Virus record (IMG/VR): IMGVR_UViG_3300018080_003942
Location: 1 to 64,000 of that record
Direction: 5' to 3' (one strand)
Origin: a virus
Length of the DNA: 64,000 bases
Both the position numbers and the translations under genes were made by a program. A model generated the notes under the pieces. The model searched no databases. It saw only the letters and a list, made by a program, of their open reading frames with translations, and was not told where the DNA came from. How positions within the stretch are numbered: the first letter of the stretch is position 1; each line of letters opens with the position of its first letter. Shown here in pieces: positions 2-21,460 of this stretch.

Positions 2-2113
2 GCCGCCCGTCGTGCGCTCGAGGTGGAGGCTGAAGACCGCCCGGTGCTGATGAACCGCGCGCCCTCACTGCACAAGTTCAACATCCAGGCCCTCAAGCCC
101 CGGGTGATCGACGGTAAGGCGGTCGAGGTCAACCCGCTCATCGTGAGCGGCTACAACATGGACTTCGACGGGGATACGGCCGGTCTACACGTTCCGGTCT
201 CTGAAGAGGCCCGGCGCGAGGCTCGTGAGAAGCTGCTCCCGTCGCGCAACCTGTTCAGCCCTCGGGAGGAGTTCGTGGTCCATGCCCCGACCAAGGAGAC
301 GATCCTCGGGGTGTACCTGATGACTACGCCCAAGGGACTTGCCTCCAAGTCGTTCTCCTCCGACCAGGAGATGGTCAAGGCATACCAGGCCAAGGAGATC
401 AAGGTCAACGAAGCGGTGAAGGTCCAAGGCGCTGTGACCTGCGCCGGTCAGGCCATCTTCAACACGGCGCTTCCTATGGATCTGCGCGTGGGTCGTACGT
501 CGGTGACCGGTCCGCGTTTGAGCCAGCTCCTGGTTCGCATCGGTCGGCAGTTGGGCCCCGACCGGGCCGCTCAAGTGATCTCGAAGATCAAGGACCTAGG
601 CAACCACTACGTGACCGAGGTCGGGTTCTCCGTGAGTCTCCGGGACCTTGAGCTTGATACGAGCAAGCGGGATCAGATCGTCAACAAGCTCAAACGAGAC
701 GCCAAGACCAAGGGGTTCGATGAGGCGGCTGGCGAGGCGCTCGAAGACATCGCAGCGCTGCTGGCGTCGGCAGAGGATAACCGGTTCGTGGAGGCTGGCA
801 TCACATCCGGAGCCCTAGGCTCCAAAGGCATCCACCGGATGCTGGCGAGCACCGTGGCAGTGACGGATCACAAGGGCAAGACGGTCCCGATCCCGGTCGA
901 GAAGTCCTATGCCGAGGGCCACGATCTAGGTACCTACTTGGGTACGACCCCCGGCGCCCGGAAGGGCTTGATCGACAAAGGCCTGAGCGTGGCGGATACG
1001 GGCTACTTCAGCCGCATGCTCGTCAACAGCTCGATCGAGAACCAGGTGACCGTCGCGGACTGCGGAACCAAGTCGGGCCAGGATCTGCCGCTCAACTCCC
1101 AGGAGCTCGCGCACCGCTACGGCGCCGAGGGCCGCTACCGCAACGTCTTGATCACCTCGGACATCGCCCGCCGCCTGCGCTCCCTAGGCCAGAAAACGGT
1201 CAAGGTCCGTAGCCCTCTGACTTGTCAGGCGCAGAAGGGCGTCTGTCAGAAGTGCTTCGGCCTACTCGAGGATGGCAAACCGCCTCGCATCGGTTATCAC
1301 GTCGGTGCTCTGGCCGGCCAGACCCTGGGTGAGGTGGCTACCCAGCTGACCCTGCGCAGCTTCCACACTGGTGGCGCTGTTGGTGGGCCCGACCTGGGTT
1401 TTGAGCGCATCCGTCAGATCATGGAGATGCCTCAAAGCATCCAAGGCAAAGCCATCCTGAGCGAGGCCACCGGCCAGGTGACGCGCATCGACACAGCGCC
1501 GGCGGGCGGTAGTTACGTCTACGTCGGCTCCGAGAAGCACTTCATCCCCAAGGAGCTGGGGGTAGCGGTGAGTCGAGGCCAGCGCGTGAAGGCGGGGGAT
1601 CAGCTGAGCAAGTCGGGTGTGATCAAGCCTCAGGAGCTGCTAGATACGACAGGGGACATCAATCGTGTCCGTACCCATCTGATCAACGAGCTGGATGCTA
1701 ACTACAGAGCGGCCGGCAAGAAGGTCAACCGCCGGATCTTCGAGACGGTGGTCAAGCCTCTTACTGACCGTGCGACTGTGACGGACGTCGGAGACGCCGG
1801 CCGCCATTTCCCGGTACATGCCGGGGAGGTCATGCCTGTCAACCAGATCGAGGAGATGAACCGCAAGCTCAAGCAGCGCCGTCTTCGCCCGATCCAGTTC
1901 GAGCCTATGATCATGGGTATCAAGCAGGCCCCGTTCCAGAGCGAGGACTTCGTGGGAACGCTCACCCATGAGAAGCTCAAGCGGACCCTCACCGAGGCCC
2001 CTAGCCTGGGTAAAGCCACGGACCTTGTGCGCGGCCACCCGATGGCCCGCCTGGGTCTCACCAACCTCCGATCCATCGAAGCCATCAAACGACCTCAAGG
2101 GGTGAAGCGATGA
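2..2113 (+). CDS. rpoC: Phage-encoded bacterial-type RNA polymerase beta-prime subunit (5' truncated)
   Basis: This is the C-terminal two thirds of a multisubunit RNA polymerase beta-prime. The frame is open from base 2, so the N-terminus lies outside the window; the GTG at 23 is not a credible start. Visible landmarks in bacterial order are RPVLMNRAPSLH, the metal-binding motif NMDFDGD (Asp codons at 161, 167 and 173), a bridge-helix region ending in GARKGL...GY..R.LV, the second zinc site (Cys codons at 1061, 1223, 1244, 1253), the trigger-loop segment QLTLRSFHTGG (about 1350-1375) and a C-terminal block resembling bacterial RpoC. It is much closer to cellular RpoC than the split, divergent subunits of phiKZ-like phages, but shorter after the active site than E. 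coli beta-prime, so it lacks large inserts. It overlaps the next gene by 4 nt (ATGA) and leads into baseplate genes, so it belongs to the phage. The beta subunit was not seen in this window. Confidence 0.95.
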   Translation, partial: AARRALEVEAEDRPVLMNRAPSLHKFNIQALKPRVIDGKAVEVNPLIVSGYNMDFDGDTAGLHVPVSEEARREAREKLLPSRNLFSPREEFVVHAPTKETILGVYLMTTPKGLASKSFSSDQEMVKAYQAKEIKVNEAVKVQGAVTCAGQAIFNTALPMDLRVGRTSVTGPRLSQLLVRIGRQLGPDRAAQVISKIKDLGNHYVTEVGFSVSLRDLELDTSKRDQIVNKLKRDAKTKGFDEAAGEALEDIAALLASAEDNRFVEAGITSGALGSKGIHRMLASTVAVTDHKGKTVPIPVEKSYAEGHDLGTYLGTTPGARKGLIDKGLSVADTGYFSRMLVNSSIENQVTVADCGTKSGQDLPLNSQELAHRYGAEGRYRNVLITSDIARRLRSLGQKTVKVRSPLTCQAQKGVCQKCFGLLEDGKPPRIGYHVGALAGQTLGEVATQLTLRSFHTGGAVGGPDLGFERIRQIMEMPQSIQGKAILSEATGQVTRIDTAPAGGSYVYVGSEKHFIPKELGVAVSRGQRVKAGDQLSKSGVIKPQELLDTTGDINRVRTHLINELDANYRAAGKKVNRRIFETVVKPLTDRATVTDVGDAGRHFPVHAGEVMPVNQIEEMNRKLKQRRLRPIQFEPMIMGIKQAPFQSEDFVGTLTHEKLKRTLTEAPSLGKATDLVRGHPMARLGLTNLRSIEAIKRPQGVKR

Positions 2114-2472
2114 CCAAGCGCAGCGCAGCCTACATCGAGGGTCTCCTGAAGGAGGCCGCAGGTAAAAAGAAGAAGAAGGAGAAAGACAGCCAGCCTAAGA
2201 GCTTGACTCGCTCCGACATCGACAAGGCCCGACTGAACCCGGACCTGATGCGTCGTATGCGGATGCGTTCGAGCGTGGCTGTCCCCCTCAAAGGCGATGA
2301 GCTGCTTCAGGTGCGCCGGCTGGCGCGTCGGAACCTTCCCTTGATGCGTCAGCGCAACCCCAAGCTGACCGAGAAGGCCCTTTACGATCGCCTGGTGGCG
2401 CTGATCCAGAGCCGCCGGCCCGAGATGCGCAAGAAGCTCCTGGCAGCTGTAGCCACGGAGTACGGGACCTAG
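2110..2472 (+). CDS. Small basic protein with N-terminal virion-type tag
   Basis: A 120-residue basic protein that I do not recognise. Residues 7-18 (AYIEGLLKEAAG) match the N-terminal tag of the protein at 17761 (AFLEGFLKQAGI). A lysine run (KKKKKEK) follows, then an Arg-rich helical body. The start overlaps the end of the beta-prime gene by 4 nt, so the two are translationally coupled, and a baseplate spike gene follows 2 nt later. Location and tag suggest a virion or internal protein; a DNA- or RNAP-binding role is an alternative because of its charge and coupling to rpoC. Confidence 0.75.
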   Translation: MTKRSAAYIEGLLKEAAGKKKKKEKDSQPKSLTRSDIDKARLNPDLMRRMRMRSSVAVPLKGDELLQVRRLARRNLPLMRQRNPKLTEKALYDRLVALIQSRRPEMRKKLLAAVATEYGT

Positions 2473-2474
2473 GA

Positions 2475-3770: not shown

Positions 3771-4047
3771 GGTCCAGCGAGAGGGTGACCCCATCAGCTG
3801 TGGGGACAAGCACGGCAGCGCTGCGGGGTTCCGCCTCAACGGTAAGCGTGTGGCCCTCCTAGGGGAGCTCTCGGCCGGCCATGACGGCTTCCCACCTACC
3901 CCGGTCCTCACCGGTGAGAGCCGTTTTCGGGTAAATGGGGTCCCTATCGTACTGGAGGGGGCCGCCTATGCGCCGCATACCCGCGGGGACACCACACACG
4001 CCATCCGGTTGGCGCAAGGCAGTGGCGTCGGCCTAAACGTATACTAG
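3763..4047 (+). CDS. PAAR-like spike tip protein
   Basis: A 94-residue protein starting at TTG 3763, overlapping the spike gene by 8 nt. It shows PAAR-family features: an early GDPISCG, repeated short F-x-x-N-G-x-x-V units (GFRLNGKRVALLGE and SRFRVNGVPIVLEG) and His residues near GHD and HTRGD that could bind the tip metal. PAAR proteins form the sharp cone capping gp5/VgrG trimers in contractile injection machines. No better in-frame ATG is available and no strong ribosome site is visible, so expression probably relies on coupling to the spike gene. Confidence 0.8.
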   Translation: MAEVQREGDPISCGDKHGSAAGFRLNGKRVALLGELSAGHDGFPPTPVLTGESRFRVNGVPIVLEGAAYAPHTRGDTTHAIRLAQGSGVGLNVY

Positions 4048-4068
4048 ACTGGACCTTAGAGTCTTCCC

Positions 4069-4422: not shown

Positions 4423-4423
4423 C

Positions 4424-4777
4424 ATGAGTTCCATCGGAGTCCTCCAAGTCCGGCCTGAGCACACGCAGGCCTCGCCGCTCAATGTGGCCGCCGGTAACGT
4501 CTCGCTCGTGGGCGAGGCTACCTTCACGATCCAGAACGTCGGGCACAGTGATGTCTGGTGCCGCCTCAAGAACACCAACGCGGCTACCTCGACTACCTGG
4601 GCGCGTGCTGTTCCCGGGCATCACGCGCTGCTGTCGATCGACGGTACTGCCGACGACGCCCTGACTCTGGACCTGTACAGCGCGGGACAGAGCTACCGAT
4701 ACATCCCGATCCACAACACAACCGCTGAACCGGTCTCCTACATCGGCCGCGTGGAGGTCACTCGCCATGGCAACTGA
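4424..4777 (+). CDS. Small beta-rich virion protein, tandem paralogue B
   Basis: A 117-residue partner of the preceding gene, separated from it by 1 nt and likely produced by tandem duplication followed by strong divergence. The conserved C-terminal half includes ALTLDLYSAGQ and EPVSYIGRVEV, matching AITLDVYVPRQ and APVSYLPGRLT in the paralogue. The stop lies 11 nt inside the next gene. Probably a beta-sandwich virion component; whether the two products form a hetero-oligomer is open. Confidence 0.75.
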   Translation: MSSIGVLQVRPEHTQASPLNVAAGNVSLVGEATFTIQNVGHSDVWCRLKNTNAATSTTWARAVPGHHALLSIDGTADDALTLDLYSAGQSYRYIPIHNTTAEPVSYIGRVEVTRHGN

Positions 4778-6476
4778 TAACCCGAACCTCGGCGGCCAGC
4801 CGCTCTTCGTCTCGGCCCCCGACAACCTGCTTCAGAAGCTCGCCAGCTCCAAGCTCTCCAAGGACCCCAAGGAGTGGGAACAGGAGATCATGGACTACCT
4901 GCATGAGCAGCACCCGTACATCGCCGACCACAAGGTCGTGGTGGCCATGAACAAGACGGATACCGACGACGGCCATGGCGTGGGCCACGTCAAGATCGGC
5001 GACAAAGTCACCATGCCGGTGATCGTCGAGAGCAACCGTCTTCAGCCGCTGGACCTGTTCGTGGCTGACGACCGTCTCCAGCCGCTGACCAAGGAGGCCT
5101 TCACCGCCGCGGTGCAGAGCCACTCCTTCGGCAAAGCCGTGAAGCCGGGCAAGGGCGAGGCGTCTGACAGCTCGATCACCTACGCGACCCTGCCGCCCTT
5201 CGACGGTAAGTACGCCTATGGCTCCTTGGGCTTCACCCGGGACCAGCTGACCGAGGTCCTCGAGCCCCTGCACGAGGCCAATCAGATGGGCTTCTGCCTG
5301 GCCAACCCTTGGTTTGGGGAGGTCCTGGGCGAGTACATCAAGCACGCCCAGCTCGAGCAAGAAGAGGAGAAGGTGGCCGGCGTCGCGTACAGCGCGCGCA
5401 TGGTGACTACCCGACCCTTCGAGACCATCAAGACCGCGGGTTTTGCCCAGGTGTCGACGGATAAAGGCAACGTCCCCGCTCTAGTCTTCGATCACCATCT
5501 GACCTTTGGACGCGGTGAGGTGGCTACGCCGGGTCGGTTCTCGGTGCTCGGTCTGGATAAGGAAGCCACCTACGGTCGCGCCTGGCGAGGCTACCCCGCC
5601 GGGCGCCCTGTCCAGGAGTTCGACATCCCGGAGCGTGAGATCGGCGACCGGGCGGTGCTCGCCCTGATCAAGGAAGGATCGGCCGTGGCTAGTGAGCCCT
5701 TCACGGTCCTGGACCAGGATGATAAGCGCACGCTGGTTGAGGCCGATGACGGTCGGCGGTGGTCGCTGCGCTTTGATGCCGACAACCCACTGTACAAGCA
5801 GGCGGAGGATCAGATCTTCCTGTCTGACGAGTGGGCGATGTTCCCGGTGGGCCGCGAGGCGGATCTTCTGAACGTCGACGTGGCGAACCAGAAGACCCTG
5901 CCGGTAGGTATGACCTCGATTGAGAAGGTGGGCGGCCTGTTCAAGGTCCACCAGGCCGGGCGCCTCGAGAGTCTGAAGCGCGTGCCGGCCGAGGGCATGG
6001 CTCTGGATAAGCTGGCGAGCTACTTGACGGGCTTGGACGATGAGGTCCGCGGAGCGATCCTGGACCACATGGATAAGGTCGGCCGCGCCTTCTTCGTCAT
6101 CTATCCCGAGGTCGAGAAGACCGCTGGCGAGACCTACTCGTTCCCCGAGCCGGATCCGTCTGTTTTCGAGTCTTGCACGCTGGCTGCTGGCCTGATCACC
6201 CCCGACCTGTGCAAGCGCGCCAAGGTCGAAGAGGAGAAGGCCAAGAAGACCATCGATGCGATCCTGGGCTTGAACTTCCTCAATGAGGAGAACATGCACA
6301 AGTTCGTGGACCGCATCGACGCACTCGAGGAGGCCAAGGACTGCGTGGCCCAGCTGCTTCTGGCTAGTCGCCTTGGGCTATCCATCGACTCCCAGCCCCT
6401 GCGGACGGCGATGTTCTCTCTGGACTCGGTGTCTCGTGATCTCCGCGAGCTCCGCAACGCGGTGACCGCTAAGTAG
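4767..6476 (+). CDS. Large unrecognised probable virion protein
   Basis: A 569-residue soluble, mixed alpha/beta protein that I cannot assign. Residues about 70-110 contain VGHVKIGDKVTMPVIVE followed by PLDLFVADDRLQPLTKE, which reads like a conserved structural-protein block. Several K-x-A motifs occur (QKLAS near residue 25, EKVAG near 205, IKTAG near 222, EKTAG near 453), as in the head proteins downstream. The C-terminal about 100 residues are helical. It sits directly before the terminase genes, where a portal might be expected, but it does not look like a portal protein. Confidence 0.75.
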   Translation: MATDNPNLGGQPLFVSAPDNLLQKLASSKLSKDPKEWEQEIMDYLHEQHPYIADHKVVVAMNKTDTDDGHGVGHVKIGDKVTMPVIVESNRLQPLDLFVADDRLQPLTKEAFTAAVQSHSFGKAVKPGKGEASDSSITYATLPPFDGKYAYGSLGFTRDQLTEVLEPLHEANQMGFCLANPWFGEVLGEYIKHAQLEQEEEKVAGVAYSARMVTTRPFETIKTAGFAQVSTDKGNVPALVFDHHLTFGRGEVATPGRFSVLGLDKEATYGRAWRGYPAGRPVQEFDIPEREIGDRAVLALIKEGSAVASEPFTVLDQDDKRTLVEADDGRRWSLRFDADNPLYKQAEDQIFLSDEWAMFPVGREADLLNVDVANQKTLPVGMTSIEKVGGLFKVHQAGRLESLKRVPAEGMALDKLASYLTGLDDEVRGAILDHMDKVGRAFFVIYPEVEKTAGETYSFPEPDPSVFESCTLAAGLITPDLCKRAKVEEEKAKKTIDAILGLNFLNEENMHKFVDRIDALEEAKDCVAQLLLASRLGLSIDSQPLRTAMFSLDSVSRDLRELRNAVTAK

Positions 6477-6483
6477 GTCCGCG

Positions 6484-9504: not shown

Positions 9505-10641
9505 ATGAACTCCCTCGCCCTCTACTTCATGGCCCGGAGCGCGGCCCGTGATCTAGTGCGTAGTGATGTCCCCCTCAACGAGGGAATCGCCAAGCACGCC
9601 TCGGAGCACGGCCTGAGCCAGCTTCAGATCCAGCGCGTGGTGGAGGCCGCCAACCACGAAGCAAACGCCCTCCTCCAGAAAACAGCGGAGGACAAGACCT
9701 TCAGCTTCGACTTGGCCAGCCTGGACGGGGTCCTCTCGGCCCTGACGCCGGGCACGGCGGCCACTACGGTCAGCCTTGGGAAGCTAGCTGAGGCTGCTGA
9801 CGCCCTTCTGGAGCCTCGAACGCGGTTTGATGAGCGTGTCGAGGCTCTTCCGCGTGAGTCCGAGGACGCCAAGATTGCCCGCTTCCGCTCGACGATGCAC
9901 GCCCTGGACAAGGTGGCTGATCTGGCCGCTACCCAGATGCGGGTTGTCCAGATGGACCGCATGCGTCAGATGGAGAAATGCGCCAGCGGATTCGAGCGTC
10001 TGGTGACCCAGGCCGGGGAGTACATCCGCCGCGGCGGCGCCCTCGAGGACATGCGCAAGTACGCGCAGGCCGTCGAGCCGGGCTTCGACCGAGGCTGGGA
10101 CAAGATCTTCGGCCGGGTCCAAGAAGAGCTCCAGAAGCTCGGTCACCCCTTCACGGGCGAGCTGGCCTCGGCGACCGAGCTGATGGCTGACCGCAAGGAC
10201 CGGCCCGGAGGCCCGCTGCCCCACGCGGGCACCCTGAAGGTCACTAACGGCCGCCACGCCCTGGCCGGCGAGCTCAGCACCCTCCGGGACAATGTCTCGT
10301 TCCTGGATCGCCTGGCTGACCGTACCCGGGAGATCGACAACTTCAACAGAGCTGTCCGGGTCTCTCAGCGCATGATCATCGACAACCAGGACGTGGACAC
10401 CCTGTTCGCCAAGGAAGCTGAGAAACTGGCTGCCTTTACCGGGGAGGAGCTTGGGGAGCACATCGAGAAGCTCGCCAGGAAGGACTCGAACATCTCTACG
10501 GTGGAGAAGGGTCTGGTCGGCACTGCTGTTGACCATACCGGTAAAGCCTCGATCAAGGCCGTGATGAAGCGCGCCCTCTCTGATCACATCCCTGGGGCCT
10601 TTGTCGGTCCCGGTACCCCTGCTGCCTACCGCTCCAAATGA
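9505..10641 (+). CDS. Unrecognised helical protein of the head module
   Basis: A 378-residue, predominantly helical protein, Ala/Glu/Arg rich, without membrane segments. It carries K-x-A motifs (LQKTAED near residue 57, LDKVADL near 135, FAKEAEKL near 305). It lies first after the 116-nt leader and overlaps the next gene by 4 nt. The product is not recognised; the region between TerL and the protease often encodes portal or minor head proteins, but no portal signature is visible here. Confidence 0.7.
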   Translation: MNSLALYFMARSAARDLVRSDVPLNEGIAKHASEHGLSQLQIQRVVEAANHEANALLQKTAEDKTFSFDLASLDGVLSALTPGTAATTVSLGKLAEAADALLEPRTRFDERVEALPRESEDAKIARFRSTMHALDKVADLAATQMRVVQMDRMRQMEKCASGFERLVTQAGEYIRRGGALEDMRKYAQAVEPGFDRGWDKIFGRVQEELQKLGHPFTGELASATELMADRKDRPGGPLPHAGTLKVTNGRHALAGELSTLRDNVSFLDRLADRTREIDNFNRAVRVSQRMIIDNQDVDTLFAKEAEKLAAFTGEELGEHIEKLARKDSNISTVEKGLVGTAVDHTGKASIKAVMKRALSDHIPGAFVGPGTPAAYRSK

Positions 10642-11405
10642 ACGACATTCTGACGAAGTTCGCCGGCGTCTACGGGGGTCCCCTCGATGCAGACGAGAAG
10701 CGCGAGGTCGGTGAGTTCTCGGCCAAGCTCCTGAAGGCCGCTGCTGCGGGCGAGGGGGCTACGGTGGTTGAGATGCTGAAGGAGGCCGCTAGTCAGGTCT
10801 CCGATCCGGATGACTACGAGGCCTTGATGGGTATGCTCGAGCATCTGGAGAAAGAGGGCGCTGTCGGCTACAGGAAGGCCCTGGTCTACGGCCTACCCGC
10901 TATTGCGGCGGGCCTCAGCGCCGTACCCGCCCTAGCCTCCTTGACCCAGCACCTCGGCCGCAAGAAGCGAATCGAGCAGAGCCGGCATCAGATTCAGCGG
11001 GAGCATCCGATGCTCCGTGAGGATGTTGACTTCCACCGCTACTTCGACACTGTGAAGCGATTCGCTCCCGATGTCGCCGCTGATCCCCTGGTCGCCGGCA
11101 ACATCATGGTCGAGATGCACCGACTTGGGCCGGCGGCTATGACGCCTACCCGGATCAATGAGCTTCTCGGCCTCCAGGGTCGCATGAGTGAGCACCGAGG
11201 TACCATTCCTCGTCAGGTTGCTGACCTAGGTGCTGGTATCACCAGCGGCATCAAGACGCATAGCGAGTCCGCTGAGATCCTGGACCGGAACCCGCACACG
11301 GCTAAGGTTGAGCGCGCGAACCGCGCGATGTCGGCGCTCCAGAGGCGTGAGGAGCTGCTCGGGGACCAGAAGGTCCAGGACGCTATGGCCAAGCTAAAGC
11401 CCTGA
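10638..11405 (+). CDS. Probable minor virion protein with one hydrophobic helix
   Basis: A 255-residue protein coupled to the previous gene by a 4-nt overlap. The N-terminus MNDILTKFAG carries a K-x-A-G motif, with further examples at LLKAAAAG and LKEAAS. Residues about 80-103 form a single hydrophobic, Gly/Ala-rich segment (ALVYGLPAIAAGLSAVPALA) followed at once by KKR, the layout of a membrane-active helix with a cytoplasmic stop. The rest is helical and charged. Possible internal/ejection protein; no family recognised. Confidence 0.65.
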   Translation: MNDILTKFAGVYGGPLDADEKREVGEFSAKLLKAAAAGEGATVVEMLKEAASQVSDPDDYEALMGMLEHLEKEGAVGYRKALVYGLPAIAAGLSAVPALASLTQHLGRKKRIEQSRHQIQREHPMLREDVDFHRYFDTVKRFAPDVAADPLVAGNIMVEMHRLGPAAMTPTRINELLGLQGRMSEHRGTIPRQVADLGAGITSGIKTHSESAEILDRNPHTAKVERANRAMSALQRREELLGDQKVQDAMAKLKP

Positions 11406-11408
11406 ACT

Positions 11409-11621
11409 ATGCGCAACGGAGCGATTAGCCACGGGGACCAAACGCGCGCGTCCTTCATCCAGCCGAGCAAAGACGCCCGGCGGATGGGGACGACGCGTCG
11501 TAAGGAGACGACCCCGCAGCAAGATCGCGATCGAGGCCCTGATTCCTACCCTGAGCACGCCCACAACAAGTACGCAGCGATGCTTGAGGGCTTCTTGACC
11601 GTCATCAACCAGCGCATCTGA
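11409..11621 (+). CDS. Small polar protein ending in the AMLEGFL motif
   Basis: A 70-residue, basic, probably disordered protein; not recognised. Its C-terminal end contains AAMLEGFLTVINQ, resembling the tag seen at the N-termini of the proteins at 2110 and 17761. The stop and the next start overlap as TGATG, so it is coupled to the protease gene, which supports it being real. It could act as a protease partner or scaffold-like peptide. Confidence 0.6.
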   Translation: MRNGAISHGDQTRASFIQPSKDARRMGTTRRKETTPQQDRDRGPDSYPEHAHNKYAAMLEGFLTVINQRI

Positions 11622-13030
11622 TGGAATACGCTCTCGAGAAGCATCTAGCGGCCGGCGGCTACGACGCGCCGGGCTGGGGCCCTGACTATGTGGCGATCCA
11701 CAGCGCCCAGATGGAGAAGACGGCGGGATCGCTCTACACCCCGCCGGAGCTGACCACGGTCATCGAGAAGCTCCGCCCCCGGCCGGAGGGTCGCTACATC
11801 CTGCTCCACGCCATCGGGGCGTATGAGTACTGGGGCGCCAACCGCAACGGTGACGCCTTCCCGGAGTGGAGCCTACGCTCCATGCTCCCGCCGGAGGACG
11901 TCAAGCGCCTACTCGACGGTCCGGTCCGTAAGGCCTGCCCCAACTTCAGCCAGCCCCCAACGGCTCGATACGGCTGCAAGACCTTCGTCGAGTACGCCCA
12001 CGTCTACCGAGGCCACGCCAACAAGGACCCCCTCAAAGCCTGCGGCGATGTGGTTGCGGCGGCTTACAACGAGCGGATGCACCGGATCGAGCTCATCGTG
12101 TTCGTCTACACGGAGAGAGCCCCGGACATCATCGACCGGATCGACCGTGGAGCGCCTGTGGCCTGGTCCATGGGGGCCAAGCTGCCGTTCGACGTCTGCT
12201 CCATCTGCGCTAACGTGGCCCGAACGCGAGCTCACTACTGCTCGCACATGGCCAAAGAGCTGAATGTCGTCTATCCGGACGGCCGTAAGGTCTTCAGCTA
12301 CAACTACTTCCCGAGGTTCTTCGACATCAGTGAGGTAGGTGTCCCGGCCGATCGGAGCGCTTGGACCCTCGCCAAGGTGGCTGGGCTATCCCTCCCTGTT
12401 CCGCCGCTGCGGCCTACTTTCAAGATAGCTACGATCGAGAAGCGCCCCCCTGCCCAGTCATCGGAGTCCATGGGAAAGGCTCCGATCGACCCGAAGCTCC
12501 TGAGCTTTTTGAGCTCCGCAGTCTCTAGAGACTACTGCGAGACCCCGGACCTGCCGGATGCTCAGCTAATGGCCATGAAACGCCACGGAGTGGCTCAGAG
12601 CCTGGCTGCCAGCGCCCTGATGGGCATTCTCCTGCGCCCCCGGGAGGTCCAGAAAATCGCAGGGGATCCTTCACAACTCCCGGAACAGCTTGAGTTTGCG
12701 TCGGTAGACCGCAAACTGCTGTCGAGCTTTGATCCTTATCTAGCCTCTCGATCGCTGTTCGAGCCCTTCATCACGAAGCGCGCGGCCCGCCGAGAGCTGA
12801 GCAAGGTGGCAAGCTCGCTCTCTCCCAACATCCCCCGTTCACCGGTGTTCGACAAGTACGCAGGACTCATCCAGTCCATGGACCACGAGAAGTGGGCCGA
12901 GGCTATCGAGTCGGATCCGGCTGTCCGTTTCGCCCTTGACCCCGATGCGCTGGTTTCCGCAGTCACCGGGACTCGAGGGCCTCTCCCGCCGTGGCTGCCC
13001 TTCGCGGTCGGCTCGGTCAAACTCCTCTAG
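11621..13030 (+). CDS. Prohead maturation protease (HK97/S78-like)
   Basis: A 469-residue protein. Residues about 62-80 contain YEYWGANRNGDAFPE, a block common in large-phage prohead proteases; candidate catalytic residues are His in YRGHAN (about 130) and Ser in AWSMG (about 181), followed by a metal-binding-like C-x2-C-x11-C-x2-H cluster (about 193-211). After residue about 270 comes a helical tail with several K-x-A motifs (KVAGL, QKIAG, SKVAS, DKYAG), which may include self-processing sites. The location just before scaffold-like and capsid genes fits. It would cleave scaffold and N-terminal propeptides during head maturation. Confidence 0.8.
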   Translation: MEYALEKHLAAGGYDAPGWGPDYVAIHSAQMEKTAGSLYTPPELTTVIEKLRPRPEGRYILLHAIGAYEYWGANRNGDAFPEWSLRSMLPPEDVKRLLDGPVRKACPNFSQPPTARYGCKTFVEYAHVYRGHANKDPLKACGDVVAAAYNERMHRIELIVFVYTERAPDIIDRIDRGAPVAWSMGAKLPFDVCSICANVARTRAHYCSHMAKELNVVYPDGRKVFSYNYFPRFFDISEVGVPADRSAWTLAKVAGLSLPVPPLRPTFKIATIEKRPPAQSSESMGKAPIDPKLLSFLSSAVSRDYCETPDLPDAQLMAMKRHGVAQSLAASALMGILLRPREVQKIAGDPSQLPEQLEFASVDRKLLSSFDPYLASRSLFEPFITKRAARRELSKVASSLSPNIPRSPVFDKYAGLIQSMDHEKWAEAIESDPAVRFALDPDALVSAVTGTRGPLPPWLPFAVGSVKLL

Positions 13031-13050: not shown

Positions 13051-13434
13051 ATGGATCTCGATCTCGACCAGATCTTCCAGGCGGTCAAGGGCCAGGCCGA
13101 GGGCACCGATCTCGACAAGGTTGCCGCGGATCAGGGCTCCGAAGCCAACACCCCCACCGACGAGGTGGAGAAGCTCGCTGCTGAGCTTCGCGCCGGCGGC
13201 CAGCTCTTCGGCGACGCCGCTGCCGACACCATTCTTCAGAAGCTGGCCGAAGCGGTCCCCGCTGGCGGCGCCGGCAACGCCCCGCGCTCTGCTGCTGAGC
13301 AGATCGCCGAGCAGATCGCCGCTGCCAAGGGTAAGACTTCGGCCAAGCCGGGCGACGACACCTCGGTCCGTGCCGAGAAGGACCCGACCCCGGGCGCCCA
13401 GGGCGTGGTCAACCCCGCGACCCCGCTCGGCTAG
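13051..13434 (+). CDS. Acidic scaffold-like head protein
   Basis: A 127-residue acidic Ala/Glu-rich protein. I chose ATG 13051 (MDLDLDQIF) because upstream in-frame codons overlap the end of the protease gene. It contains LDKVAAD, VEKLAAE and LQKLAEA, three K-x-A motifs in 60 residues, and a disordered Pro/Gly/Lys C-terminal third. Its position between protease and capsid suggests an assembly or scaffold component. Confidence 0.7.
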   Translation: MDLDLDQIFQAVKGQAEGTDLDKVAADQGSEANTPTDEVEKLAAELRAGGQLFGDAAADTILQKLAEAVPAGGAGNAPRSAAEQIAEQIAAAKGKTSAKPGDDTSVRAEKDPTPGAQGVVNPATPLG

Positions 13435-13458: not shown

Positions 13459-13941
13459 GTGAAAACCCTTCAAGACATTCGCCAAGAGATGCTCGATCAG
13501 GAGTATCAGACCAAGCTGGCGGCCGTGTCCGAGGCCTATGAGGGCGACGAAGTGCGCCTTCAGCTGCTCGGTGAGGCCATCGACCTCGTCAAGCAGGCCG
13601 AGGCGGCTGGCGAGATCCCCGAGACCACGGAGTCTTCGATGCTGACCCTCGCGGTTCAGATGGTTGAGGATCATCTGGCCAAGGAGGCTTCCGCCGAGGA
13701 CGTCGAGGACGCCGAAGAAGCTCCGGAAGAGGAGGAGGCCGAAGAGGCTGACCTCGATAAGGAGGCCGCGGCCCACATCGCCACCCTGGCCGACGCTGCT
13801 GGCTATCTGCTGGCTGAGCGTGGGATCACCCAGGAAGACCTGGACAAGATCGCCTCCGCCGAGGAGGCCTACCAGGTCGGTGAGTACCTCGCCTGCGCCC
13901 TGCTCGACGGCCTGGGCGCCGAAGAGGCTGAGGAGGAGTAG
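13459..13941 (+). CDS. Acidic scaffold-like protein
   Basis: A 160-residue, strongly acidic protein beginning at GTG 13459 behind a GGAGAT ribosome site. The centre (about 80-100) is a Glu/Asp run and the C-terminus ends in AEEAEEE; the flanks are helical. K-x-A motifs include TKLAAV, LAKEASAE, LDKEAAAH and LDKIASAE. Composition and place in the head operon match phage scaffolds that are digested by the prohead protease. No specific family recognised. Confidence 0.7.
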   Translation: MKTLQDIRQEMLDQEYQTKLAAVSEAYEGDEVRLQLLGEAIDLVKQAEAAGEIPETTESSMLTLAVQMVEDHLAKEASAEDVEDAEEAPEEEEAEEADLDKEAAAHIATLADAAGYLLAERGITQEDLDKIASAEEAYQVGEYLACALLDGLGAEEAEEE

Positions 13942-13945: not shown

Positions 13946-14164
13946 ATGCTGAAAGCCTCGCTGTCTGAGCTGTTCATCGAAGCCGCGGTCGCTGACCGGG
14001 TTGACGAGGAGCACGTGAAGGAGGCCGCCGTTGACGGCGACCTTCTGGAGGACATCGATGAGGCCCTCGGCGAGTCCACTCCCCAGATCGAGAAGCGAGC
14101 GAGTCGCCTGGCGGTTGCCAAGGTGCTCGCTGCTCTCGACATCCTGTCCAACAACCGAAACTGA
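13946..14164 (+). CDS. Small helical head-module protein
   Basis: A 72-residue protein (ATG 13946) that begins with an amphipathic helix (LKASLSELFIEAAVADRV), followed by an acidic linker and a second helix ending in SNNRN. The frame extends further upstream but there overlaps the preceding gene in a low-quality composition, so the short form is preferred. Not recognised; probably an assembly cofactor or internal protein. Confidence 0.65.
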   Translation: MLKASLSELFIEAAVADRVDEEHVKEAAVDGDLLEDIDEALGESTPQIEKRASRLAVAKVLAALDILSNNRN

Positions 14165-14167
14165 CCC

Positions 14168-14536
14168 GTGACTTCCGAGAGGGACCTCAAGGATCTGCTC
14201 CGTAACGCGCGCGACGTCCTGATCAAACAGGCGGCTGAGCGTGATGCGGCCCTGTCCAAGACGGCCGAACTCGAGGCAGAGAACGACGTAATGCGCGGCG
14301 TGCTCGACCTCGTCGGTGCCGGTCTAATCGACCCCGATGATGTCACCACCAAGCTAGCGGAGTACATGCAGGACCCCGCCCAGCTTCAAGTCATCAAACA
14401 GGCGGCTGCTGCCGGCTTTGTCGTCTCTTCGGAGCTCGGCAAGCTGGCCGGCGAGAACCCGGAGATCGCTGGTGACACTAGCACTCCTGCCGGACGCCTG
14501 ATGACGAACCTCCGCAACATCGTTCTAAACCCCTGA
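14168..14536 (+). CDS. Small coiled-coil head-module protein
   Basis: A 122-residue protein starting at GTG 14168. Residues 5-45 form a probable coiled coil containing LIKQAAERDAALSKTAELEA; VIKQAAAAG and GKLAGE follow. The C-terminus has conserved-looking Gly/Pro turns and ends in RNIVLNP. It lies 15 nt before the decoration-like gene. Not recognised; a capsid assembly role is inferred from context only. Confidence 0.65.
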   Translation: MTSERDLKDLLRNARDVLIKQAAERDAALSKTAELEAENDVMRGVLDLVGAGLIDPDDVTTKLAEYMQDPAQLQVIKQAAAAGFVVSSELGKLAGENPEIAGDTSTPAGRLMTNLRNIVLNP

Positions 14537-14551
14537 TCTCAACTACGAATC

Positions 14552-15049: not shown

Positions 15050-15061
15050 TCACCTCCTGTT

Positions 15062-15105: not shown

Positions 15106-15148
15106 ACCTACTTCACTCAACACCAAACCTCATAGAGGTGCACTGAAC

Positions 15149-16411
15149 ATGGAAACTGTCAACGCAGCCGAGTTCAACGCGCTCTTCGGGGAGGCTCTGA
15201 GTCGAGGCGGTGAGGCCATGGACAAGGTGGCGGCTGCCACCGGCCTGTACATTCAGGACAAGCTCCGTGAAGCCTCGTTCGCCCGCAAGATCCTCCCGCC
15301 GGAGACCGTCACCGAGAAGGAACTGACTCGGAACACGTCCGACGAAGGCCTGTCGTACATCGACGACATCGAGCCGGACTCCCTGGCCATGCAGGTCAAC
15401 TGGCGCGGCGAGCCCAGCAAGACCTACATCGAGGGCAAGCGCTACTCGATCGACATCAGCACCGTGTCCTCGGACCGGTTCCAGAAGTCGATCCAGGAGC
15501 TTCGCTCCTACCGGATGCCCATCATCCGCGTCATCGAGCAGAACACGGTCAAGGACATCCACGAGATCCAGGACCGTTCCTTCATGCGTCACGTGCGCGT
15601 TGCCCTCATGCTGGGCACCCGCCGCCGCATGAACGAGCTCGTCGACCGCAGCATCGTCACCCACACCGGTGACGACGGCGCGTCGACCGACGGCAAGAAC
15701 TTCTACACGAAGTACGCCTTCGCGTCCTACCTGTTCACCCGCAACATCGCCGACACCGTCGGCGGCGGTGGTCTGTCGGACGTCAGCCCGGCCGTCGAGT
15801 CTCCGAGCAACCACGCTTGGGGTCTGACCTCGACCTCGGACGCTACCTACAACCCGGCCAACGGTCAGTTCTCGAACATCGTGCTCTCCGAGGAGACCGA
15901 GTTCGGCCGAGCTGTCCTGCGTGATGCCATCCGCATCCAGTCGGCGCGTGAGATGAAGGCTCGCTGCTTCCTGCTGCACGAGTTCGACTGGAACGCGACC
16001 GTGGGCTGGCTCGACAGCGAGGCCGGTCTGGAGGTCACCTCGGAGATCGTCCGTGACGGGTACAAGTACTCGACCGTGGGCGGCTACACCTTCGTGACCA
16101 CCGTCCGCGACAACCCGGACATCCTCCAGCCGGGTCAGATCTTCACCTTCCCGAGCCCCGAGTTCATGGGCCGCTTCCTCCTTCTTGACGGGACCCAGTT
16201 CTACGTCAACAAGGAAGGCCGCTTCCTGAACATGGAGGCCTGGGAAGACGCCGGCATGGGCTTCGGTAACATCAAGGGCATCGGCCTCGTGCTGCTGTCT
16301 GGTGCCGAGATCACCCTGCCGACGATCTGGCAAACCGAGGGCGGCACCGACGTCGACGTGGCCAGCACCTTCCGTCTCGTCAACGACGTCTCGGACCCGG
16401 TCCCCGCCTAG
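15149..16411 (+). CDS. Major capsid protein (HK97-fold type)
   Basis: A 420-residue protein flanked by two terminators and preceded by AGAGGTG at good spacing, the organisation expected for the most abundant virion protein. The N-terminal about 45 residues are helical (including AMDKVAAATGLY) and may be a processed propeptide. The body is mixed alpha/beta with a long spine-helix-like region (about 115-170) and a Gly-rich loop (about 205-215), then beta-rich P- and A-domain-like segments. No residue-level family signature was identified; assignment rests on size, composition, operon position (protease, scaffold, decoration, capsid) and flanking terminators. Confidence 0.85.
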   Translation: METVNAAEFNALFGEALSRGGEAMDKVAAATGLYIQDKLREASFARKILPPETVTEKELTRNTSDEGLSYIDDIEPDSLAMQVNWRGEPSKTYIEGKRYSIDISTVSSDRFQKSIQELRSYRMPIIRVIEQNTVKDIHEIQDRSFMRHVRVALMLGTRRRMNELVDRSIVTHTGDDGASTDGKNFYTKYAFASYLFTRNIADTVGGGGLSDVSPAVESPSNHAWGLTSTSDATYNPANGQFSNIVLSEETEFGRAVLRDAIRIQSAREMKARCFLLHEFDWNATVGWLDSEAGLEVTSEIVRDGYKYSTVGGYTFVTTVRDNPDILQPGQIFTFPSPEFMGRFLLLDGTQFYVNKEGRFLNMEAWEDAGMGFGNIKGIGLVLLSGAEITLPTIWQTEGGTDVDVASTFRLVNDVSDPVPA

Positions 16412-16449
16412 GACTGATCGCCTAGCCGGTAACCCCGGCTGATCCAACG

Positions 16450-16486
16450 GGGGCTCCGGTAGAGGAAACTCTCCCGGGGCCCCTTT
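16450..16486 (+). terminator. Intrinsic terminator after the major capsid gene
   Basis: Stem GGGGCTCCGG / CCGGGGCCCC (10 bp, one G-T pair) with a 14-nt loop, followed by TTT and a pyrimidine tract. It lies 39 nt after the capsid stop codon. Confidence 0.75.
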
Positions 16487-16506
16487 CACCTCCCATCCGA
16501 TTCATC

Positions 16507-17178: not shown

Positions 17179-17188
17179 GAGGCCCTAG

Positions 17189-17761
17189 GTGCCGGAAGAT
17201 CCCACAAAGCTCCCAGGGGCGCCGAAGCAGGATGTCGGAGTCAACTCGGGCCGCCGAGTACTCGTGCCGAACTCCCTGATTCGGCAGCTCCGGTCGATGC
17301 TTGCGGACTACCCGGAGACTAACGAGGTCTTTGTAGGCGAGGAGAACTCCGATGAGAAGCTGGCGCGCTACATCGTGCTGGCCTTCGACGACTGGAACTC
17401 CATGCCCCCGCTCCTGCGCTACCAGCTGTCGCCCATCGACGTGGTAGCGGTCGAGAAGTTCTGGCCCTTCCGGCCCCTGCTCCTGACAGCCTCTCTTCTA
17501 CACGTCCTTCAGAGCGTGATCATCAAGCTGGCGCGTAACGATGTCCCCTATCAGGCGGGCAACGTTACGCTCCAACGCAACGCCGTCTGGCGTGGGCTCA
17601 CTGAGCTCCGCAATCAGATGGAGGCCAAGTATCAGCAGCAGGCACAGGCCGCTAAGGTCGGCCTCAATGTCAGTGGCTTCTACGGGGACGGCGGCTACCG
17701 CGCTTCCCTGACTGAGATGTACGAAGGCCTGGACGTAGACGCTATCACGGTGGTTCTCTGA
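17189..17761 (+). CDS. Putative head-tail connector/neck protein
   Basis: A 190-residue protein starting at GTG 17189, seven bases after a GGAGG site. Mixed alpha/beta, with aromatic/Pro-rich block NSMPPLLRYQLSPIDVV and a helix-rich C-terminal half. The next gene starts at the last base of its stop (TGATG). The position directly after the head genes and before other neck genes fits a connector, but no family motif is visible. Confidence 0.6.
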   Translation: MPEDPTKLPGAPKQDVGVNSGRRVLVPNSLIRQLRSMLADYPETNEVFVGEENSDEKLARYIVLAFDDWNSMPPLLRYQLSPIDVVAVEKFWPFRPLLLTASLLHVLQSVIIKLARNDVPYQAGNVTLQRNAVWRGLTELRNQMEAKYQQQAQAAKVGLNVSGFYGDGGYRASLTEMYEGLDVDAITVVL

Positions 17762-18231
17762 TGAAGCACTTCGACGCCTTCCTCGAGGGGTTCCTCAAGC
17801 AAGCAGGCATCCAGGAGATCCTTCAGGATCAGCTGGCTGCCTCCAAGGCCGTCTCGGCCGGCTCAGGCCCCAAGAGACTCTTGGCTAGTCGGGAGCACGT
17901 CGACGACCGGTTGAGTCACGGGCTGTCCGGCGCGGCTAGTGTCGGTATCCCGGCAACGGCTGCCGGCGCCTTGATCGGCGCAGGCCTCGCCATGCTCATG
18001 GACGGTGATCCCATGGCCGGCGCTGGTCTTGGTGCTGTCCTTCTCGGCTCGAGCGGCGCAGCGGTAGGCCAGGCGGCCGGCCAGCTGAAGGCTGACGAGC
18101 AGGCTCTCGAGCGCGCGGGGCTCGAGTCCAAGGTTCCGAACCCCGCACGCTTCGCACTCCCTTATCCTGTAGCCAGCGTCTTGGCCGATCCGGGCCATGT
18201 CGCGGTGACCAAACGACCCCTCCCGGAATAG
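17761..18231 (+). CDS. Tagged glycine-zipper membrane-active virion protein
   Basis: A 156-residue protein. Residues 6-17 (AFLEGFLKQAGI) repeat the tag of the protein at 2110. Residues about 60-110 hold two hydrophobic Gly/Ala-zipper helices (TAAGALIGAGLAML and GAGLGAVLLGSSGAAVG) with a short DGDPM turn between them, a helical hairpin able to enter membranes. The C-terminus is soluble. First of a set of such small proteins; likely an internal/ejection protein, by analogy with virion proteins that form DNA channels. Family not recognised. Confidence 0.65.
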   Translation: MKHFDAFLEGFLKQAGIQEILQDQLAASKAVSAGSGPKRLLASREHVDDRLSHGLSGAASVGIPATAAGALIGAGLAMLMDGDPMAGAGLGAVLLGSSGAAVGQAAGQLKADEQALERAGLESKVPNPARFALPYPVASVLADPGHVAVTKRPLPE

Positions 18232-18235
18232 CCCA

Positions 18236-18667
18236 ATGAACGACAACATCTACGACGCCCTGTACGGGGCCATCTGTGAGAGCCTGGCCAAGCACGCCGA
18301 GGCCATGGAAGCCGCTCCCGCTCCGAAGAAGCAGAAGGACGAGCAGCGCGCCGCGGTCAAGACCCTAGCGGCTGGCGGTGCGGGTGTCGGTACGTACATG
18401 GCCAGCCGCTCTGGTAATCTCAAGCAGACCCAGACCCTGGGCTCTCGACTCAGCCGCGGCAGCGCCAAGATTCGCCGCGGGGCTGAGACCCTGAAGGCGG
18501 GTTACGAAGGCCGTGCTCCCCAGCTCAAGACAGTGCCGCGTAAGCGGATGAAGGCCGTTGGTCGCATGCGGGCGGGTGCTCGCGGCGTCGGCGCCGGTCT
18601 CGCCGCTGGCTACCTGGTCGGCAAAGGCTACGACGCCGTCAAGGGCGGTAAGAAGCAAGAGAGCTAG
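18236..18667 (+). CDS. Small basic protein with tagged N-terminus and Gly-zipper helix
   Basis: A 143-residue, very basic protein. The N-terminal helix (IYDALYGAICESLAKHAEA) resembles the tags of neighbouring proteins. A short Gly/Ala segment (about 43-55) and a C-terminal one (ARGVGAGLAAGYLVGKGYDA) flank a Lys/Arg-rich centre, and the tail is GGKKQES. Spaced 4 nt from both neighbours. Not recognised; candidate DNA-associated internal virion protein. Confidence 0.65.
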   Translation: MNDNIYDALYGAICESLAKHAEAMEAAPAPKKQKDEQRAAVKTLAAGGAGVGTYMASRSGNLKQTQTLGSRLSRGSAKIRRGAETLKAGYEGRAPQLKTVPRKRMKAVGRMRAGARGVGAGLAAGYLVGKGYDAVKGGKKQES

Positions 18668-18670
18668 CGA

Positions 18671-19129
18671 ATGCGCGAGGCCCTCATCCAGGGCCTGGTC
18701 GAGAAGCTGGCCAAGCTGACACGCGAGCAAGACCGGGCACTCCGACGAGCAGAGCAGGGTGAACAGACCCTCGCTCTGCGCGCCGGTCAGGCCGTGGGCG
18801 CTGCCGGCGGTGTAAGAGCTGCTAAGCCCATGGCCCAGAAGGCTGAGGTCTTGCTGAGGGCCAAGGGGCCGAAGACGGGTCGGACAAAGCTCAAAGGGGC
18901 TTACCACGCCGCCAAGGCCCTGGGTCTTGTGGCGGGTACCACCACGGGCTCGGGCATCGCCGCTAAGCGCGCAACAAAGAAGATTCAGGAATACAAGCGG
19001 CGCAAGCTGCAAGGGGTCAAAGGCCCGACGGTCGGTGAGCGGGCGCACGCGGTCGCGGAGCAGGCCAAGAAGGAGACGGGTGAGGTCGCCCGGATCCCCG
19101 TCGAGTACAAGAACGTTCGGGGGAGCTGA
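18671..19129 (+). CDS. Small basic protein with tagged N-terminus and Gly-rich helix
   Basis: A 152-residue basic protein. The N-terminus (REALIQGLVEKLAKL) matches the tag pattern of nearby proteins; a weak hydrophobic Gly/Thr helix (KALGLVAGTTTGSGIAA, about 92-108) is followed by a Lys/Arg-rich stretch. It ends in TGATG with the following neck gene. Same architecture as 18236 and 20064 although the sequences differ. Function unknown, internal virion protein inferred. Confidence 0.65.
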   Translation: MREALIQGLVEKLAKLTREQDRALRRAEQGEQTLALRAGQAVGAAGGVRAAKPMAQKAEVLLRAKGPKTGRTKLKGAYHAAKALGLVAGTTTGSGIAAKRATKKIQEYKRRKLQGVKGPTVGERAHAVAEQAKKETGEVARIPVEYKNVRGS

Positions 19130-20022
19130 TGGCTGAGACGCCGGCGAGACTCGTCGAAGTCCACGTCTTCCAGCAGACCTCCGATGCACAGGTGGTCGGC
19201 TGGACTTACGTGCCGGTAGGGGGCGCGCCTACCAGCGGAGCCACGGTCAAGGTCGAGCGCTCCTATGTGGAGCACGAGGGCTTCGAGGTCTTGGACGCGG
19301 CTGTGACGGCTTCCCAAGGGTTCTACAAGGACACCTCGGTCAACCTCCACGACCAGTGGCGGCGGGTCTACTACAGGCTGACACTGGACGACGGTGTCAA
19401 TGATCCGAAGGTCATTGGCACCTACTGGATGGAGAACGAACTACCGGGCCCGGCTCGGGGGTTCATTCGCAACACCGAAACCCTCCTCCGGCTCGGCGGT
19501 GTGCCCATCCTGATCATGCAGCGGGTCTTCGATACGAGCTCCCGCTGTACGAGCTGCTGGGATCCGGTCATGGGGATGACGACGAGCTCGAGCTGCACCG
19601 AATGCTTCAACACCGGCTACACGGGCGGCTACCACTCGGCGATCCTGACCCTAGGCCAGCTCCAGCCGGCTGCCAAGCAATCCGACCCCTCGGACACACT
19701 GCGCCAATCCCGGAACACGGCCATCCTGATCGCCAACTACCCGATCCTGCGGCCCCGGGACCTGATCATCGAGCTCAACAAGGGCCGGCGGTACCGTGTA
19801 GGGGGTATCTCCACGGCCGAGTATGGCCGGGCCCTGATCAACCAGACCGCGGCTCTGGTGGCCCTGAACCCCTCCGACGTAGAGCATCAGGTCGACCATC
19901 CCGACCCTTCGACGCTTGAGCCGCTCTTCCACCGGGTGGGTCCCGTGGAGCATAGGTTGATCCTGACCGACAACATCCAGAGCCCTGCGGTGGATCCGAC
20001 CATCACTTCCAACGTTGTCTGA
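19129..20022 (+). CDS. Neck/tail-completion-like virion protein with zinc cluster
   Basis: A 297-residue protein. The first 125 residues are beta-rich (two fibronectin-like strand sets). Residues about 137-170 hold C-x2-C-W-D ... C-x2-C-F-x-T-G-x-x-G-G-Y, a zinc-binding block I associate with minor structural proteins of several phages. The C-terminal third is beta-rich. It sits in the middle of the small internal-protein genes between capsid and sheath, which fits a neck or adaptor protein. Exact role unassigned. Confidence 0.65.
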   Translation: MAETPARLVEVHVFQQTSDAQVVGWTYVPVGGAPTSGATVKVERSYVEHEGFEVLDAAVTASQGFYKDTSVNLHDQWRRVYYRLTLDDGVNDPKVIGTYWMENELPGPARGFIRNTETLLRLGGVPILIMQRVFDTSSRCTSCWDPVMGMTTSSSCTECFNTGYTGGYHSAILTLGQLQPAAKQSDPSDTLRQSRNTAILIANYPILRPRDLIIELNKGRRYRVGGISTAEYGRALINQTAALVALNPSDVEHQVDHPDPSTLEPLFHRVGPVEHRLILTDNIQSPAVDPTITSNVV

Positions 20023-20063
20023 TGCTGGTAGCCGACGCTCCTAACCGTAAGCTATAGCTGAAC

Positions 20064-20960
20064 ATGGGTCCATCCGAACACCGGCTGCTTGAGGGCATGC
20101 GCCAGGCACTCTGCCAGGAGGGGCGGGGTCTGGTCGAGCCTATGGAGAAGGACGCGGGGACGGAGCTCTCCTTCGGCCGACGCCAGGGGTTCCTGGATGA
20201 GGAGCAACCAACACTTCGGGCGGCTACTCGAGGTGCCGCGATTGGCGGGTCCATCGGGGCCTTGGCCTCGACCGCGGCGACGCTGAGCAAGAAAAACCCG
20301 TACAAGCCTAAAACACAACAGGCTCGGGCTACGGGCGCCATGTTGGGCGCGCCTGTGGGTGCCTTGATCGGCGGGAGTATGGGCTCGGCGGCCCAGCGTC
20401 GCAAGAAGATGACGGCTAGAGATAAGCGGATCTTCGATCAAGCCACGATAGCTGGAGCGGTGCTAGGTGCCGGGGGCATGATCAAGCGCACAGGCTCCCC
20501 GACCAAGGCCCTGCTAGGCGCGGGCCTAGGCGCCGCTGCCGGCGCGTCTCTATCAGCCACAGGCATGCACGCGGCCCGTATGGGCGGCCGAGCGGCAACG
20601 AAGCGACCTAAGGAGTCGGGCCCGTCGCTGGGCCCTGTGGGTAAGACTCTCGGCCTGGCCGCCACGGGCGCCGGCGCGGGTACTTACCTGGCTGGCCGGC
20701 TGGCAGCCCGTAAGGTCCCCGGCGCGGGTGCCACCCAGCAGGGGGCGATCAACCAGCTGTTCTCGCGTAAGCAGATGCAGCTGGCCAAGCAGCAGATCCG
20801 AGGCGCGCGCCTCAAGGTAAAAGCACAAGCTCCCAAGCACTTTCGCTCTATGGAGCGCAAGGGCGGGGGTATCGGAGCAGCGGTTGGCGCGGGCTTGGCG
20901 TTGGGCCTGCTAGCCGCGGAATCACGGCGACGCAAGAACCGGAAACAGACTTCCCAATGA
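20064..20960 (+). CDS. Large glycine-zipper internal-protein candidate
   Basis: A 298-residue, highly basic Gly/Ala-rich protein. The N-terminus RLLEGMRQALCQEG is a loose version of the shared tag. At least four Gly/Ala hydrophobic segments are seen (about 53-75, 90-115, 130-165, 265-285), each flanked by Lys/Arg; the last ends AGLALGLLAAESRRRKNRK. Such repeated zipper hairpins fit membrane insertion or oligomeric pore formation. It overlaps the next gene by 4 nt. Not recognised. Confidence 0.65.
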   Translation: MGPSEHRLLEGMRQALCQEGRGLVEPMEKDAGTELSFGRRQGFLDEEQPTLRAATRGAAIGGSIGALASTAATLSKKNPYKPKTQQARATGAMLGAPVGALIGGSMGSAAQRRKKMTARDKRIFDQATIAGAVLGAGGMIKRTGSPTKALLGAGLGAAAGASLSATGMHAARMGGRAATKRPKESGPSLGPVGKTLGLAATGAGAGTYLAGRLAARKVPGAGATQQGAINQLFSRKQMQLAKQQIRGARLKVKAQAPKHFRSMERKGGGIGAAVGAGLALGLLAAESRRRKNRKQTSQ

Positions 20961-21460
20961 ACACGAACGAGACGACCCAGAGCCTGGAGCTCGACCTCAT
21001 GCAGAAGATCGCCACGATCATGCACGAGGACGACGCTGTGACGGTGGCTGATCATGACCCCTTCCTGTCCCTGAGCGATGGTCTCGGCGCCCACGTCGAG
21101 CCTGAGGAGGAGACCAAGGAAGCCGAGGCCCAAGAGGAGCTCGAGGACGTGGAGGAGCCTAAGACGGCTCTGGCCAGTATGTCCATGGCTCAGGTCTTCC
21201 ACGCGCCTGAGTTCCGCGAGGGCGTCCAAGAGGCCCTGGCGGCTCGCGCTGAGGAGATCAGCGAGGCTGTGACCAAGGTGGCGAAGACGAGCTGGTACTC
21301 GAAGCACGTCACCGGTCTCGGCAAGAAGTCGAAGACCATGCGGGAGCGTGCGAGCGACTGGGTCGGCAAGAACAAGGGCAAAGCCCTGGCTGGCGCTGCC
21401 GTCGGTGGCGGCATCGTCGGTGCCGGCGTCGCCAAGGGCTCGAAGGATCCCTACGCCTGA
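20957..21460 (+). CDS. Acidic/Gly-zipper small virion protein
   Basis: A 167-residue protein. The N-terminal helix holds LDLMQKIATIM, then an acidic run (about 48-62), a helical centre with VTKVAKTSW, and a C-terminal Gly zipper (ALAGAAVGGGIVGAGVA) ending KGSKDPYA. Last of the tagged set before the tail terminator gene. Likely internal or membrane-interacting; function unknown. Confidence 0.65.
   Translation: MNTNETTQSLELDLMQKIATIMHEDDAVTVADHDPFLSLSDGLGAHVEPEEETKEAEAQEELEDVEEPKTALASMSMAQVFHAPEFREGVQEALAARAEEISEAVTKVAKTSWYSKHVTGLGKKSKTMRERASDWVGKNKGKALAGAAVGGGIVGAGVAKGSKDPYA

Follow-up and report, generated by a model that had tools for sequence, protein, structure and literature searches.

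A Lys-x-Ala motif in the head proteins of a mostly uncultured phage clade as a candidate prohead-protease site and removable capsid-targeting tag

Analysis of a 64,000-base window, part of the 91,577-base IMG/VR record IMGVR_UViG_3300018080_003942, identified a short motif consisting of a hydrophobic residue, any residue, lysine, any residue and alanine (Φ-x-K-x-A) that recurs in the proteins of the phage head module. With a probability of about 0.8, this motif is the cleavage site of a prohead protease, and the N-terminal tags that carry it are removable capsid-targeting propeptides; cleavage, the scissile bond, packaging and ejection are all features that we infer from patterns in the sequence. 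A previous, sequence-only reading of this DNA had described a recurring tag on small virion-module proteins. The recurrence is real, and that framing of it was too narrow.

The head module occupies the left third of the window and includes genes for the terminase (7559), the head-maturation protease (11621) and the major capsid protein (15149). In a tally of all spaced residue pairs, K-x-A was one of the most strongly enriched within the virion module and was not one of the top pairs in the rest of the genome. Scored as [ILVMF]xKxA[ASGE], the core motif Φ-x-K-x-A-[A/S/G/E] was found 35 times in the 24 head-module genes, against 3.3 expected from within-protein shuffles that preserve composition and a maximum of 10 across 2,000 of them. 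The 63% GC content of the genome and the location of many sites within predicted helices would fit an artefact of composition, or of amphipathic helices, in proteins rich in lysine and alanine. Composition-keeping shuffles, however, yield only one tenth of the observed count, and patterns that suit the same helices are not enriched: in the head module the control with arginine in place of lysine was observed 2 times against 3.8 expected, that with glutamate 5 times against 4.5, and reversed and shifted patterns, A-x-K included, at or near expectation. The arginine control and the split between head and tail genes in isolated relatives, whose tail genes show no excess, contradict an artefact, to which we assign next to no probability.

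Motif-bearing N-termini are likewise concentrated in the head module, where they occur in 11 of the 24 genes, as compared to 4 of the 82 other genes (Fisher p = 7e-6). Genes outside the virion modules present a smaller excess (12 sites against 4.4 expected), made up of single sites scattered across many genes, replication genes included. In the early region, a minus-strand gene (33779-34015) encodes a 78-residue protein whose N-terminus, MEQELIAKVAAAYAD, matches the K-x-A motif; the match may be due to chance, or the gene may specify an internal protein from a position beyond the head module. When all sites are pooled, the logo reads [LFMI]-[E]-K-[LTVI]-A-[ASEG] and holds little information beyond positions -2 to +3, a restriction that resembles a protease subsite pattern. 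The near-absence of information upstream of -2 would also suit another explanation, in which propeptides are cut at K-x-A and carry no separate packaging information, the proteins entering the head through other contacts.

The peptides named in the sequence-only reading are all present where it placed them, in the products of genes 2110 (MTKRSAAYIEGLLKEAAG), 17761 (MKHFDAFLEGFLKQAG), 18236 (..CESLAKHAEA), 18671 (MREALIQGLVEKLAKL) and 20064 (..VEPMEKDAG), and close to the C-terminus of the 11409 product (..HNKYAAMLEGFL). The resemblance between 2110 and 17761 does not suffice as evidence by itself: its 12-residue score of 33 ranks third among 5,565 N-terminal pairs and lies within chance, since shuffled N-termini, sampled 1,200 pairs at a time, give maxima of 24-35. 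The highest-scoring N-terminal match in the genome is a Lys/Ala-rich N-terminus shared by two different proteins encoded on the minus strand, 31017-32735 (KKKKAAKKATKK) and 35263-36873 (KKKKVAKKATKK), and a further pair, 27253-27420 on the minus strand (FLARQDQLDVET) and 60756-61892 on the plus strand (FLVQRDQTDVPT), reaches a score of 36, above that of 2110 and 17761, and may be due to chance. As for the looser versions proposed at 18236, 18671, 20064 and 11409, all of them contain the K-x-A core; in 20064 and 11409 it is this core, and not the "LEG" stretch, that is shared. The 18671 sequence, VEKLAK, fits K-x-A and fails the strict pattern because the next residue is lysine. In a related locus (L007), the relative of the 11409 product reads SKYAALLEAIV, retaining K-x-A and not EGFL. 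The small proteins do carry the motif, but they are not alone in this: most of the resemblance within the window stems from a protease-site-like motif that the major capsid protein, the protease and the scaffold-like proteins also contain.

Positions in the window define a set of candidate N-terminal tags or propeptides, all on the plus strand. The 120-residue protein encoded from 2110 has the candidate tag MTKRSAAYIEGLLKEA (2110..2157), with a predicted cut after EA; the L007 relative has KTG at the corresponding place and MKKQAS at its extreme N-terminus. Immediately before this gene, the contig opens with a reading frame (23-2113) for the C-terminal portion of the beta' subunit of a multisubunit RNA polymerase, and RNA polymerase genes likewise precede the head module in the isolates Salmonella phage Arash and Vibrio phage D69. 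The predicted tag MKHFDAFLEGFLKQA of a 156-residue glycine-zipper protein (17761..17805) conforms to the tag of the clade, F..[EG][LMIFV].K.[AG], and its relative in L007 and L004 reads MNINAFIDGMLKHA. Two basic proteins follow, one of 143 residues with the putative tag MNDNIYDALYGAICESLAKHA (18236..18298), represented by MSTIYTTFYDAFVTELAKHA in a relative, and one of 152 residues with MREALIQGLVEKLA (18671..18712), a weaker fit to the motif in which the next residue is K. A 298-residue protein with many glycine zippers has an N-terminal region ending at a VEPMEKDA/G site, with the predicted cut after A (20064..20156); the start codon at 20064 is favoured because the L007 relative reads MGLSEQRYF..VEPLDKVA. 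N-terminal sites were also found in a 167-residue protein with three more K-x-A sites (MQKIAT, 20957..21013) and in a 255-residue protein (MNDILTKFA/G, predicted cut after A, 10638..10664) that has two further sites, LLKAAA and MLKEAA, and whose N-terminal site is conserved in L007 as MNNILTKFAG. The site near the C-terminus of the 11409 product lies at 11568..11576, and the L007 relative keeps SKYAAL there. Pfam and PHROGs yielded no name for the tagged proteins. Glycine-zipper patterns are repeated in the tagged bodies encoded at 17761-18231, 18236-18667 and 20064-20960, and the 12 present in the last of these suggest several membrane-inserting helices in the 20064 product.

Profile searches of IMG/VR returned 192 related stretches for the protease and 318 for the capsid protein, and 80 of each were kept. 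The motif was enriched in 134 of 134 usable related loci, each above every shuffle, with 2,712 sites against 368 expected over a set that is partly non-independent, because it includes duplicates of some contigs as well as some closely related ones. The arginine control over the same 134 loci gave 290 matches against 263 expected, and five further loci from genome bins presented the same enrichment. Arash and D69 share a gene order similar to that of the window, and in both the motif is a feature of head genes (35 against 2.6 expected in Arash, 24 against 2.0 in D69) and not of tail genes (2 against 1.7 and 0 against 0.5, respectively). As a positive control, the T4 pattern (L/I)xE[AGS] behaved in the same manner in T4, with 20 matches against 6.2 expected in head genes and 5 against 5.0 in tail genes; T4 head genes showed no K-x-A excess. 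Bacillus phage G also has an excess of K-x-A (11 against 2.1 expected) and a related protease, gp19, which is 35% identical along part of its length, but its capsid protein, gp27, lacks an N-terminal K-x-A. Within the phage G stretch (L166, 4754-17742), sites are found in the portal gp14 (MAKQAA) and in gp19 (LVKTAA, LEKVAS and LLKIAS), and their presence in portal and protease suggests that the code may extend beyond the clade. Mycobacteriophage Myrna, a distant protease-like match, was considered as a carrier of the code and rejected, having no K-x-A excess. One locus (L010, 70-2889) encodes a protein with an array of ten-residue repeats in which K-[IL]-A (TAKIADG) recurs at intervals of ten or twenty residues, unlike the head sites; this protein is probably a fibre.

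The gene at 11621..13030 on the plus strand (phrog_18299) encodes the predicted head-maturation protease. Its K-x-A sites are located at residues 31-35 (MEKTA/G, K33), at residues 250-254 (LAKVA/G, K252) and further on, and the predicted mature core comprises residues 36-254, between the K33 and K252 sites. The structural model has an ordered core at approximately 35-258 and low confidence at 1-34 and 259-285. VIA-align placed T4 gp21 (5jbl) first, with a Z of 9.3, a moderate score, and 2.8 A over 129 residues, followed by herpesvirus assemblins/proteases (Z 6-8.8). Plain Foldseek of the model against PDB gave no significant match, and a sequence search of solved structures with the capsid and protease profiles gave no clear relative, with 'Gp27 major capsid protein' appearing only at E 0.7; matches in BFVD included annotated prohead proteases and phage G gp19 (E 3e-14). 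The gene adjoins scaffold-like and major capsid genes, as gp21/assemblin-type proteases would, and the model points to a fold of this type. Residues H132, S183 and D191, invariant across 43 protease sequences, are the putative Ser/His/acid catalytic residues and the ones to be set beside those of assemblins. Herpesvirus assemblins prefer alanine at P1 and a small residue after it, and to our knowledge they have no requirement for lysine two residues before that alanine. Upstream of the NxNGD motif, K-x-A is present in 42 of the 43 proteases, nearly always 37-44 residues away, and most of the proteases in which FFDIS was located carry K-x-A 19 residues downstream of it. The interior is mostly free of the motif, with sites within the catalytic domain in some proteases. 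Sites flanking the catalytic core are the arrangement that self-processing would need.

In the major capsid protein (15149-16411, plus strand, phrog_2522), which has an HK97 fold in its model (Z 13-16), the predicted propeptide (15149..15232) ends at MDKVA/A, residues 24-28, with the cut placed after A. The site is inside a long N-terminal helix, predicted with moderate confidence. N10, F13 and K26 are shared by all of 25 sequences, and the lysine lies 12-13 residues ahead of KLRE in those with the full motif. In many capsid relatives K-x-G takes the place of K-x-A, and in a large group position -2 is not hydrophobic. The phages with a K-x-G capsid protein show no enrichment of K-x-G in the rest of their proteins, and K-x-G and K-x-S were ruled out as general alternative sites, neither being enriched.

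Between the protease and capsid genes, four small plus-strand genes encode scaffold-like proteins with 3 (13051..13434), 5 (13459..13941), 2 (13946..14164) and 5 (14168..14536) K-x-A sites; for the first, position and site content are the same in relatives. Two longer plus-strand genes carry 11 sites each: one encodes a 569-residue protein with no family name (4767..6476), its first site at residue 24 (LQKLAS), and the other a 378-residue protein (9505..10641), a possible core or internal protein; Arash gp220, in the same place, has 10. The amphipathic helical context of the sites, the long capsid helix and the loose residue after A in N-terminal tags could alternatively be explained by a binding motif that is not cut, with K-x-A helices that anchor head proteins on the scaffold or the capsid lattice and persist in the mature virion. 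We find this improbable, as the sites flank the protease core and mostly spare its interior, accumulate at 2-5 per scaffold-like gene, as do gp21 sites in T4, and prefer a small residue after A, which is typical of a scissile bond.

Small single-site proteins show a 7-fold enrichment of F at -6 and a 4-fold enrichment of E at -3, with D/E also at -4. The resulting long tag, F.[DEN]E[LMIF].K.[AG], summarised as F-x-[DE]-E-[LM]-x-K-x-[AG], was present at 33 N-termini against 0.1 in shuffles, and the arginine control of the broader tag pattern found none. Similar tags precede unrelated bodies within single genomes, on four proteins in L033, three in L058 and two in L056, as well as in the pair FEDELEKIA/FEDELQKIA of L026 and in L100, where FADEMQKLG occurs twice; across these five loci 7-11 of 13 tag residues are identical and the bodies lack significant similarity. 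The property generally expected of a capsid-targeting sequence, a shared N-terminal tag on unrelated proteins, is hence found in the relatives at the level of sequence. The modular tag that had been proposed is real, the long form being significant only across relatives; in the window only 17761 fits it. This last observation would favour the explanation in which K-x-A is a protease site and nothing more; the enrichments at -6 and -3 and the sharing of whole 13-residue tags, beyond what a cleavage site needs, argue against it, and we consider it unlikely, though less so than an uncut binding motif. In the strongest N-terminal tags, the residue following A/G is under little constraint, and 12 of 55 have G where the others have A, so that these sites may be cut poorly or elsewhere. 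Tagged bodies have a higher median net charge per residue (+0.07 versus -0.02) and more often contain glycine zippers (28 of 52 versus 364 of 1,615 others), a composition that would fit internal proteins that associate with DNA or insert into membranes.

Taken as a targeting propeptide joined to a protease site, the system would operate as follows. The protease encoded at 11621-13030 would recognise hydrophobic-any-Lys-any-Ala and cut most likely just after Ala, with A/S/G/E next. In the small proteins, the site would end a short amphipathic propeptide, [AG]-F-x-[DE]-E-[LM]-x-K-x-[AG] in the clade and AFLEGFLKQA here, acting as a capsid-targeting sequence that carries basic glycine-zipper cargo into the assembling prohead, probably by binding to the scaffold core. 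The protease would then cut the tags, the capsid propeptide, its own two flanks and the scaffold, all at the same motif, clearing room for DNA and leaving mature internal proteins that are perhaps ejected with it. The aromatic residue six before K, the acidic residue three before K and the K-x-A site would divide the labour in parallel to T4 IPIII.

In T4, the internal proteins IPI-III carry a capsid targeting sequence and are processed by gp21 at (L/I)-x-E; the first ten residues of IPIII target it, with positions 4 and 7 mattering for targeting and 8 and 10 for processing (PMC9026906). The candidate system resembles that of T4 in its short N-terminal propeptide on small internal proteins, in which the protease motif comes after a hydrophobic targeting part, and in having the motif at the N-terminus of proteins that stay, many times in the scaffold and at the ends of the protease (PMC9026906). 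It differs in the site, K-x-A and not (L/I)-x-E, and in the tag sequence, being T4-like in its working and outside the T4 code. The analogy with the T4 capsid targeting sequence, already drawn from the sequence, is well supported by the gp21-like protease in the module, the concentration in head genes, the modular tag in relatives and the basic glycine-zipper bodies. The proteases phiKZ gp175 and SPN3US gp245 likewise belong to large phages with many processed head proteins and several sites per propeptide (PMC9026906, PMC10052503), but theirs is (S/A)-x-E, cut after Glu, whereas the site predicted here has Lys at P3 and Ala at P1. In P1, the N-terminal 30 residues of DarB suffice to carry a reporter into the head, and no shared consensus is reported among Dar N-termini (PMC9024508), unlike the one tag common to many proteins in this clade.

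This kind of system is hence already known from T4, phiKZ/SPN3US and P1. Searches for a K-x-A head-protease motif, phage Arash and phage G processing returned no description of the K-x-A code, the clade-wide tag or the cargo class in the literature covered, which was chiefly open-access; the sequence-only reading likewise knew of no description of the motif. Beyond the window, it appears fairly probable that a large, mostly uncultured clade shares one K-x-A maturation code and a portable head-address tag that loads changing sets of basic glycine-zipper proteins for delivery to the host, making internal and ejected proteins predictable from sequence. If this is right, it would provide a readable head-assembly code for a clade known almost only from metagenomes, from which one could predict which proteins form the scaffold, where the mature capsid protein and protease begin and end and, most importantly, which small proteins of no known function get packaged, and perhaps injected. 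Running T4 logic, a targeting propeptide plus a protease motif, on a different code would also help trace how specificity changes jointly in gp21/assemblin-type proteases and their substrates.
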